A stretch of DNA of 64,000 nt, taken from contig NZ_SWBP01000004.1 of NCBI RefSeq assembly GCF_005116455.1, positions 1-64,000 of the forward strand, written 5' to 3'. Positions 533-58,421 of the stretch are shown in pieces. This stretch comes from Pedobacter cryophilus (lineage in GTDB: Bacteria > Bacteroidota > Bacteroidia > Sphingobacteriales > Sphingobacteriaceae). Below the pieces are notes generated by a model, which worked only from the letters and a program-made list of their open reading frames with translations, had not been told where the DNA came from and did not search any database. Each line of letters begins with the position of its first letter. The first letter of the stretch is position 1. Position numbers and translations under genes: made by a program.

Positions 533-626
533 GCGTTAGGGGGTGAAGCGGCATCCTTTTTGTTTTTTTAACAAAAAGATACCTTGCCTGCGGCAGGTAG
601 GTAGCGTAAAACCCGCCCGAACGCCC
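533..626 (-). repeat. dispersed structured intergenic repeat, family 1, copy D
   Basis: Read on the minus strand it starts GGGCGTT, has an ACGCT box, a hairpin CTTTTTGTT/AACAAAAAG, then GGATGCCGCTTC and ends CTAACGC. It carries a 22-base insert with a palindromic CTGCCGCAG core (580-601), also found in copy A but at another place in the element. It lies directly downstream of, and in the same sense as, the metallophosphoesterase-like gene, and may serve as the end of that transcript. Confidence 0.75.
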
Positions 627-31177: not shown

Positions 31178-31957
31178 ATGATCAAAAATAAAAAATATAG
31201 AATTCTAGTGGTGAATGATGATGGCATTACTGCTCCAGGTATTAAAGCACTAATAGAAGCAATGCAAGAAATTGGTGACGTAACAGTTGTTGCGCCAGAT
31301 AGTCCTCAATCTGGAATGGGACATGCCATTACCATCGGGAAACCATTACGCTTAGATAAAATTCATCTTTATGAAGGTGTAGAAATGTATAAATGCTCTG
31401 GCACACCAGTAGATTGTGTGAAACTAGCAGTAAATAAAATTTTTAAGGGTCAAAAGCCCGATTTATGTGTTTCAGGTGTCAATCATGGTTTAAATAATTC
31501 TATCAATGTAATTTACTCAGGCACCATGTCTGCTGCGGTAGAAGGCGCTATAGAAAGTATTCCCTCCGTTGGTTTTTCTTTAGATGATTACAATTGGGAT
31601 GCAAATTTTGAGCCCTGCAAAAAATACATCAAAGAAATTTGTTTGCAGGTTTTAAAAAATGGATTGCAGCCGGGAGTTTTATTAAACGTAAACTTTCCAA
31701 ATCAAAATCACCCAATAAAAGGCATTAAAATATGTAGGCAAGCCAATGCAAAATGGGCCGAAGAATTTGATGAAAGACAAGATCCTTACAAACGTAATTA
31801 TTACTGGTTAACAGGTGTTTTTCAGAATAATGATAAAGGAGAAGACTCTGATGTTTGGGCTTTAAATAACCATTATGTATCTGTGGTGCCAGTTCAGTTT
31901 GATATGACAGCACATCACGCAATATCATCTTTAAATGGCTGGAATTTCGATATTTAA
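31178..31957 (+). CDS. surE: 5'/3'-nucleotidase SurE
   Basis: 259 residues beginning 'MIKNKKYRILVVNDDGITAP', with the metal-binding Asp pair in 'NDDG', then 'VVAPDSPQSGMGHAIT', 'CSGTPVDCVKLA' and 'SGVNHGLNNSINVIYSGTMSA', all signatures of SurE. It dephosphorylates nucleoside monophosphates and some short polyphosphates with a divalent metal. The length is normal. Its end overlaps the following small membrane protein gene by 23 bases. Confidence 0.95.
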   Translation: MIKNKKYRILVVNDDGITAPGIKALIEAMQEIGDVTVVAPDSPQSGMGHAITIGKPLRLDKIHLYEGVEMYKCSGTPVDCVKLAVNKIFKGQKPDLCVSGVNHGLNNSINVIYSGTMSAAVEGAIESIPSVGFSLDDYNWDANFEPCKKYIKEICLQVLKNGLQPGVLLNVNFPNQNHPIKGIKICRQANAKWAEEFDERQDPYKRNYYWLTGVFQNNDKGEDSDVWALNNHYVSVVPVQFDMTAHHAISSLNGWNFDI

Positions 31958-32210
31958 AAAAGACAACGTTTGGATTGGCTTAGGTTCTGGATTAATTTTA
32001 CCGGGCATTGCCTATCTTTTGGTAGAAGTAATTAAAAAGAACCTTAGCTTTTTAGCAAAAGACGATTTACTATACATCGGTTGTGTGGCCATTAATCTTT
32101 TATTACTCAAATACGCTTATAAATACGATAGAGAACTAACCGCAAAAGGAATCATTTCGGCAACCTTTGTTTGTGCTTTTATTTTCTTCTTTTATAAATT
32201 TAATAAGTAG
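31935..32210 (+). CDS. small membrane protein following surE, unknown function
   Basis: 91 residues with three hydrophobic stretches (about 13-30, 44-60, 70-87) and a basic C-terminus. The start at 31935 lies inside the end of surE in another frame, which suggests translational coupling. I do not recognise a named family. It stands between surE and lpxB, and a family 1 repeat follows it. Confidence 0.7.
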   Translation: MAGISIFKKDNVWIGLGSGLILPGIAYLLVEVIKKNLSFLAKDDLLYIGCVAINLLLLKYAYKYDRELTAKGIISATFVCAFIFFFYKFNK

Positions 32211-32226
32211 GGATAATATTTAATTT

Positions 32227-32323
32227 GGGCGTTTCCTGCCTGCCGCAGGCAAGGTAACACGCTTTCCGCTATATCTTTATCCCCGAAAAGGGGATAAAGG
32301 ATGCCGCTTCAATCGTTAACGCA
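32227..32323 (+). repeat. dispersed structured intergenic repeat, family 1, copy A
   Basis: It begins GGGCGTTT, carries ACACGCTTTCCGCTATATC, a perfect hairpin TTTATCCCC/GGGGATAAA, then GGATGCCGCTTCAATC and ends GTTAACGCA. A 22-base insert with a CTGCCGCAG core (32235-32256) differs by one base from that in copy D but sits before, not after, the ACGCT box. Confidence 0.8.
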
Positions 32324-32394
32324 GTTTTTAAATAAAGTTTATTTGTTGTTTAAGGGTTCTCACCTCTCAATACTCAAATCTAATAGCTAAGAAA

Positions 32395-33510
32395 ATGAAA
32401 TATTACCTCATCGCAGGCGAAGCATCTGGAGATTTACATGGCGCTAACCTTATGAAAACATTAAAGGAAGTTGATGCAGTAGCTGATTTTAGGTTTTATG
32501 GAGGAGATTTAATGCAGGCTCAAGGTGGAACTTTAGTAAAGCATTATGCTGAGATGGCTTTTATGGGTTTTTTAGAAGTAGCCTTAAACATCAGAACGGT
32601 TTTAAAGAACATTAAAGAGTGTAAGGAAGATTTATTGGCTCATAAACCTGATGTTTTAATTCTTATTGATTTTCCTGGCTTCAATTTAAAAATTGCCAAA
32701 TTTGCCAAAGAGCATAGAATAAAAGTTTGTTATTACATTTCTCCAAAAGTTTGGGCATGGAATCAGAAACGAGTCCTCAAAATTAAAAGAGATGTAGATA
32801 AAATGTTTTGCATTTTGCCGTTTGAGGTTGATTTTTATAAAAAATGGGGAATGGAAGTTGATTATGTGGGAAATCCATTATTAGATGCTATTGATGCTTT
32901 TACGCCCAATACAAATTTTAAAAATGATAATAATTTAAGCGATAAACCCATCATCGCTTTACTTCCCGGCAGCCGAAAGCAAGAATTGAAATACATTTTA
33001 CCAGATATGTTATCAGTGGTTTCTTCATTTCCAAACTATCAATTTGTAATTGCAGGTGCGCCATCTTTCAATCTATCTTTTTATCAAGATTTTTTACAAG
33101 ATTTAAAAATTCCAATAGTATTTAACGCTACTTATGATTTATTGACAGTTGCTGATGCAGCCTTAGTAACTTCAGGGACAGCAACTTTAGAAACTGCTTT
33201 ATTTAAAATTCCGCAAGTGGTTTTATATAAGGGGAGTAGCATTTCTATCGGCATTGCCAGAATGTTGGTTAAAATAAGGTTCATTTCTTTGGTAAATCTT
33301 ATTATGGATAGAAAAGTAGTAACCGAACTTATACAGGAAGATTGTAACCTCACTATGATTTCGAAAGAATTAAGCGATATCCTCTCTGAACCAAAAAGAA
33401 GCCAAATGCTGGCTAATTATGAAGCTTTAGCAAATATTATGGGTAAGCCTGGTGCATCAGAAAAAACTGCTAAACTCATTTATCAATATTTATCTCCCAA
33501 ATTAGTTTGA
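32395..33510 (+). CDS. lpxB: lipid-A-disaccharide synthase
   Basis: 371 residues starting 'MKYYLIAGEASGDLHGANLM', the GT19 signature, with 'DFPGFNLKIAKFAK', 'YYISPKVWAWNQKR', 'ALLPGSRKQELKYILP' and 'VTSGTATLETALF'. The enzyme joins UDP-diacylglucosamine to lipid X at the inner membrane surface, making the lipid A disaccharide. The length is normal. It stands downstream of a family 1 repeat and is followed by a weak hairpin. Confidence 0.95.
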   Translation: MKYYLIAGEASGDLHGANLMKTLKEVDAVADFRFYGGDLMQAQGGTLVKHYAEMAFMGFLEVALNIRTVLKNIKECKEDLLAHKPDVLILIDFPGFNLKIAKFAKEHRIKVCYYISPKVWAWNQKRVLKIKRDVDKMFCILPFEVDFYKKWGMEVDYVGNPLLDAIDAFTPNTNFKNDNNLSDKPIIALLPGSRKQELKYILPDMLSVVSSFPNYQFVIAGAPSFNLSFYQDFLQDLKIPIVFNATYDLLTVADAALVTSGTATLETALFKIPQVVLYKGSSISIGIARMLVKIRFISLVNLIMDRKVVTELIQEDCNLTMISKELSDILSEPKRSQMLANYEALANIMGKPGASEKTAKLIYQYLSPKLV

Positions 33511-37050: not shown

Positions 37051-37127
37051 GGGCGTTTTAACACGCTGTCCGCTAAATCTTTTTGGCCTCAAAAGCCAAA
37101 AAGTATACCGCTTCCATCGTTAACGCA
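37051..37127 (+). repeat. dispersed structured intergenic repeat, family 1, copy B
   Basis: GGGCGTTTTAACACGCTGTC, CGCTAAATC, hairpin CTTTTTGGC/GCCAAAAAG, TACCGCTTCCATC and GTTAACGCA. This is the shortest copy, with no insert, and so gives the basic form of the element. Confidence 0.8.
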
Positions 37128-37430
37128 AGTGCTGTGGTAAAACAATAAACTTTAAAATAATTCAGAAATCAACTTTTTAAATAATTAAGTAGTTGTGATT
37201 TTTGTTAGTCTTATCCTAAGCTTCTAAAAAGAATACACGCTATAAGTATCTTTCTTTAGTCTCTTACTTTTCAGAAGCTCTTCAATTCTTTTTATTCAAT
37301 TAAGCAAGCTTAAAAAAACTTATCGAGTAAATATAAAATCAATGTTAGCAATCAAATACATCATGTTTTTTGATGACTTCAAGCGCTGTGAAATGGATTA
37401 TAAAAAAATATTAAAAAATAAATACATAAG
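37128..37430. other. gene-free AT-rich region upstream of the ribosomal cluster
   Basis: No reading frame is convincing. An inverted repeat AGCTTCTAAAAAG (37219) and CTTTTCAGAAGCT (37267) pairs at 12 of 13 positions with a 35-base loop. Otherwise nothing is recognised. Confidence 0.4.
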
Positions 37431-52294: not shown

Positions 52295-52329
52295 TAGAAA
52301 GGGTGCTTTATTGCTAATTAATAAAGGTA

Positions 52330-52421
52330 GCCTTGCTTTCCGCTCATACTGCACAAGCCTTAAGCGCTAAGGCCTGTAACCGCTGCAATCAAGCTTATTT
52401 AACTCAGGCCTTTACAATAAA
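52330..52421 (+). repeat. dispersed intergenic repeat, family 2, copy F
   Basis: CCTTGCTTTCCGCTCATAC, a hairpin ACAAGCCTTA/TAAGGCCTGT, AACCGCTGCAATC, then AACTCAGGCCTTTACAATAAA. The boxes TTTCCGCT and CCGCTGCAATC are shared with family 1. It follows the rplQ terminator in the same sense as rplQ. Confidence 0.7.
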
Positions 52422-58305: not shown

Positions 58306-58330
58306 GTGTGTTCAATTTTTTGTTAGGTGC

Positions 58331-58421
58331 TGCGTTAACGATTGCAGCGGTATCCTTTTTTGTCCTTCGGCTTTGCGTAGGGTGACAAAAAAGATTTAGC
58401 GGAAAGCGTGTTAAAACGCCC
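58331..58421 (-). repeat. dispersed structured intergenic repeat, family 1, copy C
   Basis: On the minus strand: GGGCGTTTTAACACGC, TTTCCGCTAAATC, hairpin TTTTTTGTC/GACAAAAAA enclosing CACCCTACGCAAAGCCG, then GGATACCGCTGCAATC and GTTAACGCA. It sits inside a two-gene Fe-S unit and runs in its direction. Confidence 0.8.

Follow-up and report, generated by a model that had tools for sequence, protein, structure and literature searches.

The window, by which we mean the whole 64,000-nucleotide stretch of Pedobacter cryophilus DNA analysed here, carries four copies of a short repeat, one of which lies next to lpxB (Table 1). All four lie where an earlier reading, made from the letters of this stretch alone (the sequence-only reading), had placed them; the ends GCGTTA..AACGCCC can be read in each copy, and the stem sequences quoted at the time are present and all pair. 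Read in one orientation, the four copies share the order GCGTTA-NCGATNG-AAGCGG-CATCC-(variable hairpin)-GATA-TAGCGG-ANAGCG-TGTTAA-AACGCCC-AAAT. The element is non-coding and intergenic and measures 75-130 bp. Its fold consists of P1, an outer stem (GCGTT/AACGC), and P2, a long stem interrupted by two internal loops and capped by a variable tip; a third position, P3 (the TTAA that separates P2 from the 3' strand of P1), can be minimal or bear an extra hairpin. A short foot, which reads CCCAAAT here and TAGCTCC in Flavobacterium, is conserved on one side only. A 20-bp nested palindrome of the CCTGCCTGCCGCAGGC type is present in two of the four copies, at different points of the one fold. A marginal match to the Flavo-1 model on the minus strand at 52321-52394 (E 0.1) may be a decayed copy.

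Table 1. Copies of the repeat in the window, their parts and the genes beside the lpxB copy
Feature	Position	Strand	Context	Basis
Flavo-1, type 1	32227-32322	-	upstream of lpxB; minus-strand reading GCGTTAACG...AAACGCCC, with nested palindrome at the P3 position	Rfam RF01705 55.9 bits; R1 E 3.6e-16
Nested palindrome CCTGCCTGCCGCAGGCAAGG	32235-32254 (window ~32243)		P3 position of the 32227-32322 copy	
Apical variable hairpin TTTATCCCC/GGGGATAAA	32276-32298		in the 32227-32322 copy	sequence
Flavo-1, type 1, P2a variant GGG/CCC	533-626	+		R1 E 2.2e-9; Rfam below gathering
Nested palindrome, GATA^CCTTGCCTGCGGCAGGTAGG^TAGCG	~583-602		3' internal loop of the 533-626 copy	
Flavo-1, type 1, simplest form	37051-37126	-	upstream of ribosomal protein operon (L3 at 37540)	Rfam 48.7 bits; R1 E 3e-24
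Flavo-1, type 1, longer tip hairpin	58332-58421	+	flanked by two minus-strand genes (cysteine-rich CCG domain protein; 4Fe-4S protein)	Rfam 52.8 bits; R1 E 1.9e-20
lpxB	32395-33510	+	right neighbour of the 32227 copy; orthologous-site anchor	Pfam LpxB
surE	31178-31957		left neighbour of the 32227 copy	Pfam SurE
Small ORF	31935-32210		left neighbour of the 32227 copy	

The sequence-only reading had taken the family as unassigned. It is in fact Flavo-1 (Rfam RF01705), described by Weinberg et al. 2010 and rated a probable RNA (PMC2864571), and is thus not new, having been known since then without a function; the function is still unassigned (PMC9723704). At the curated gathering score of 42 bits, Rfam recognises three of the four window copies (32251-32330, 37055-37131 and 58317-58417), and a covariance model of our own (R1), which the sequence-only reading had suggested building, recovers all four (E 2e-9 to 3e-24) together with matches across the genome. 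A literature search found no paper treating Flavo-1 as mobile. The catalogued family is known; what is new is a better-supported reading of it, towards mobile structured DNA. Two further forms were seen. In one subtype the core CGGATACCGGCC..GGCC..CAGTATGAGCG replaces CGGCATCC..GATATAGCG (loci L358, L365, L040, L041 and L143), which places it outside the Rfam Flavo-1 model. Type 2 copies of the window genome (e.g., L008, L012 and L137) have the ends TAAACCCG..CGGGACTA and, further out, AAAGCA..TGCTTTTCT, which may add an outer stem.

The 4.0 Mb window genome holds 107 Rfam Flavo-1 matches, most of them above the cut-off, and a search with the 3' end added complete copies whose differing middle hides them from Rfam. 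Counts in the 18 genomes of the window genome's genus range from 1 to 119 matches. Of 395 genomes sampled evenly across the phylum, 57 contain a match, mostly members of one Flavobacteriaceae genus plus a few others; two close Flavobacterium genomes hold 25 and 40 copies and three others 74, 89 and 92. Nearly all examined copies (70 of 75) are free of overlap with an ORF of at least 80 codons. The searches used gave no Flavo-1 match in plasmid, phage and viral contig collections.

The evidence for the fold is covariation rather than the folding of single copies, which yields modest z-scores (-1.9 to -2.9) when each is folded alone. In an alignment of 95 matches fitted to the model (A4), 97.2% of the pair cells over 23 modelled pairs do pair, compared with 75.8% after shuffling; pairing falls to 37-62% when the partner is slid by 1-3 columns, all 23 pairs vary on both sides, and no shuffle reached the observed values. 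A plain MAFFT alignment of 29 simple copies gives the same picture, with 98.9% of pair cells pairing. Pair 12/62, for example, alternates between U-A, G-C and A-U, and the block 7-8/66-67 between AC/GU, GG/CC and GU/AU. The observation that the central stem differs from copy to copy yet always pairs, made on four copies, therefore extends to the genome as a whole, and the ends that had been described as near-inverted pair with each other and covary as P1 (GCG/CGC, GCA/TGC and GGG/CCC alternate), although they are unpaired in the Rfam model.

The unpaired places of this fold host foreign palindromes. CATCCTGAGCGGAGTCGAAGGATG and its relatives occupy the tip. CCTTGCCTGCGGCAGGCAGG stands between GTTA and AAACGCCC, at P3, in four copies (window 32243 and, elsewhere in the window genome, G000, C1:824627, C9:101093 and C9:650763), and between GATA and TAGCG, in the internal loop, in five (window 533, C10:81670, C16:6821, C12:27787 and C12:201742, the sites besides window 533 being loci L360, L367, L368 and L369). 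CCGCCTGAAC(C)GGTCGGGCAGG follows CATCC in two copies, and the long dispersed palindrome AGATTTGTCAACTCTCT..AGAGAGTTGACAAATCT forms the tip of one Flavo-1 copy and stands free just upstream of another (loci L360, G000 C10:81.5 kb, and L375, G000 C1:359.7 kb). Two nested composite copies with unrelated flanks are 95% identical over 103 bp; since the same nested composites recur at unrelated sites, the composite itself was dispersed. A test of the hairpin potential of loop inserts was uninformative, as the model alignment had moved the nested palindromes into the apical loop. In Flavobacterium, when L291 (G042 C26:274.9 kb) is compared with L237, a single Flavo-1 copy has a CCCGAAATTTCGGG-type palindrome in each of its arms; the two palindromes differ, and the orthologous copies of two relatives lack both.

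The site at lpxB can be followed across relatives. An element lies in the same orientation between lpxB and the small ORF downstream of surE in six related genomes, namely the window genome, P. segetis (L037), P. arcticus (L038), P. psychrophilus (L039), the LpxB of these three named species being 83% identical to that of the window genome, and two MAGs (L040 and L041). Its ends are nearly alike throughout (GGGCGTTT.AACACGCTATCC .. TATCGTTAACGCA, with compensated variants), but each of the six genomes has a middle of its own, and the nested palindromes differ too. In four others (L112, L042, L043 and L111) the site is empty, with only a few bases between the genes; L112 comes from an uncultured relative, and its flanking gene closely resembles the one at L040. 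Occupancy here is therefore clade-specific, and the content has been rewritten while the fold was kept. Retention across six genomes could mean a local function.

Orthologous sites in Flavobacterium, a comparison of the kind the sequence-only reading had proposed, reveal how copies differ between close genomes. Between G042 and G417 (97.1% identity over 4.5 kb), ~11 of ~17 compared sites are common and ~6, about a third, are absent, decayed or replaced: L170 is missing, the entire intergenic DNA is different at L227, L242, L216 and L233, and at L239/L278 half of the element is deleted, leaving the right end behind. None of these presence/absence sites offers a base-precise empty site, because the remaining intergenic DNA differs too. 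The nrdA site, another candidate empty site in Flavobacterium, varies in occupancy and was rejected for its non-homologous left flanks. Among shared copies, L218/L220 (99%) and L224/L231 are nearly unchanged. The tip hairpin alone is swapped at L223/L226 (GTGCCG-GGCAC to GTGTCTCGTT-AACGAGACAC), core and tip are swapped at L219/L228 and L217/L287, and at L230/L283 the whole element differs (74% identity) between flanks that are 97.3% and 99.7% identical. Flanks at the swap sites are ~92-99.7% identical, and the swapped versions pair nearly always; at L217/L287 part of the tip is lost. A single site compared between G235 and G356 has a compensated flip (CCCAGAT..AGCTGG versus CCCTGAT..AGCAGG). 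At fixed sites, tips and cores thus change as whole paired units, so that of the "selection or templating" put forward by the sequence-only reading, the exchange or templating of such units has been observed directly.

Is the fold, then, that of an RNA? Flavo-1 may be a structured non-coding RNA or UTR element as catalogued, its fold selected in RNA and perhaps protein-binding, and its copies spread as cassettes; we consider this rather unlikely. Besides the original rating as a probable RNA and the orthologous retention at lpxB, it is favoured by the mispair counts on the Flavo-1 strand, where G-U modestly outnumbers A-C (17 versus 6 in a hairpin count free of model bias; 40 versus 24, p 0.06, in CM-aligned data), although this excess, which points weakly to one-strand folding of RNA or single-stranded DNA, would be expected for one folded DNA strand as well. 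Pairing is nearly strictly Watson-Crick, and G-U accounts for only ~2% of pair cells, which is low compared with other RNA families. Further against an RNA, copies have no orientation bias relative to neighbouring genes (18 same, 23 opposite), the flanks have no conserved promoter-like sequence, nothing being conserved beyond a T at -1 and CCCAAAT, and the tip is replaced and the loops entered by unrelated palindromes. In F. psychrophilum, some 5' transcribed regions coincide with Flavo-1 matches, but the matches lie sense or antisense indistinctly, many of them outside transcribed regions and with no clear pattern (PMC9723704).

If the element is mobile DNA, one possible mover would be a Y1 HUH transposase (RAYT/TnpA-REP) that spreads Flavo-1 as a REP element. 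The lack of a target duplication, the one-sided foot, the mismatched hairpin, the >100 copies and the lack of an ORF all fit, and comparable structures have been reported beside subclass 2.6 genes (PMC6006769). We searched for RAYT/Y1 genes in the window genome, its genus and ten Flavobacteriia genomes: they occur in 18 of 18 genomes of the genus, the window genome included, and a weak Flavo-1-like match lies ~100 bp from one of them. The Y1 loci are, however, not enriched for Flavo-1, as 206 kb around 64 of them contain two R1 matches, ~380 bp and 1.1 kb off and neither flanking, against the ~5 expected at the density of the window genome; R1, being tuned to type 1, detects the Flavobacterium type less readily. 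The Flavobacterium genome G235 has 74 copies and zero Y1 matches, and G356 has 89 copies and one marginal match. In the window genome, a RAYT-type Y1 gene at L034:1340-2040 (G000 C1: ~908.1-908.8 kb) is flanked by inverted palindromes of its own, CCCCAGCTGGCGCAAGTCTT / AAGACTTGCGCTAGTGGGG, which differ from Flavo-1; it is a separate REP system. We therefore regard spread by a RAYT as unlikely. Replication-strand bias, which some single-stranded DNA transposons show, is absent in the window genome and in 90 pooled Flavobacterium copies, and suggestive in G356 (Fisher p 0.07).

That Flavo-1 copies are old, immobile repeats homogenised by gene conversion, genomes differing by deletion and conversion only, appears quite improbable: the core swaps inside intact flanks (L230/L283, L219/L228) do look like conversion and one absent case is a partial deletion (L239/L278), but the range of copy numbers within one genus and the near-identical composites at unrelated sites need dispersal, and the shared arms of ~15-25 bp are short for ordinary recombination. 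A classical MITE of a DDE transposon was rejected for want of a target-site duplication (mean 1.46, versus 1.57 in 200 shuffles). With no partner transposase found either, a known IS-derived MITE, one of the explanations that the sequence-only reading had named as overturning it, is not supported; nor did the extra sites read in a search with the 3' half, which was not exhaustive, include a long element with Flavo-1 ends around an ORF. The copies do not look like integron attC sites either, as inspection found no GTTRRRY/RYYYAAC core boxes, the ends being GCGTTA..AACGCCC.

We conclude that Flavo-1 is probably, if by no means certainly, a short, non-coding, intergenic mobile DNA repeat that acts as one folded strand. 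Such an element may move as a single-stranded hairpin whose fold and one-sided foot are recognised by a candidate enzyme, which would act in trans and, REP-like, without target duplication. Other copies would overwrite resident ones as hairpins exchange strands or the template switches from one hairpin to another, and overwriting of this kind would explain the covariation without point-by-point compensation. More tentatively, Flavo-1 might represent a phylum-wide class of single-strand-folding mobile DNA served by a putative enzyme, in which a mechanism or selection keeps the pairing rather than the sequence, paired tip and core modules are exchanged, and foreign palindromes settle only at unpaired places.

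This reading bears on annotation and on method. Flavo-1 carries an sRNA annotation in many Bacteroidota genomes, which would be misleading if it is mobile DNA, and strong covariation without an RNA function would then be a warning for the covariation-based discovery of non-coding RNAs. The swaps of paired modules at fixed sites provide a natural assay of hairpin exchange in bacterial genomes, and the search for the mover is narrowed by those Flavobacterium species in which ~75-90 copies coexist with a scarcity or lack of Y1 genes.

Among known systems, Flavo-1 resembles REP/REPIN elements in being short, intergenic and high-copy, with a mismatched hairpin and a one-sided foot and with neither an ORF nor a target duplication; it differs in being longer and two- or three-armed, in having no GTAG-type foot and no linked RAYT gene, and in reaching a high copy number in a genome that has no Y1 match. 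With MITEs such as Correia, ERIC and the P. gingivalis MITE (PMC4596501) it shares small size, lack of coding capacity, dispersal and pairing ends, whereas it has no target-site duplication, its ends are imperfect, no parent transposon was found, and its internal pairing is kept while the sequence changes. Like integron attC sites, it has a one-strand fold, a conserved hairpin base and a variable terminal structure, but it is dispersed singly between genes, whereas attC sites stand in cassette arrays. Finally, the window copies have the P2 with two internal loops and the variable tip of the Rfam Flavo-1 model; that model is 76 nt long with unpaired ends, whereas here the ends form the covarying stem P1, a P3 hairpin position is present, nested palindromes occur often, and the element behaves like a mobile DNA repeat, not like an RNA gene.
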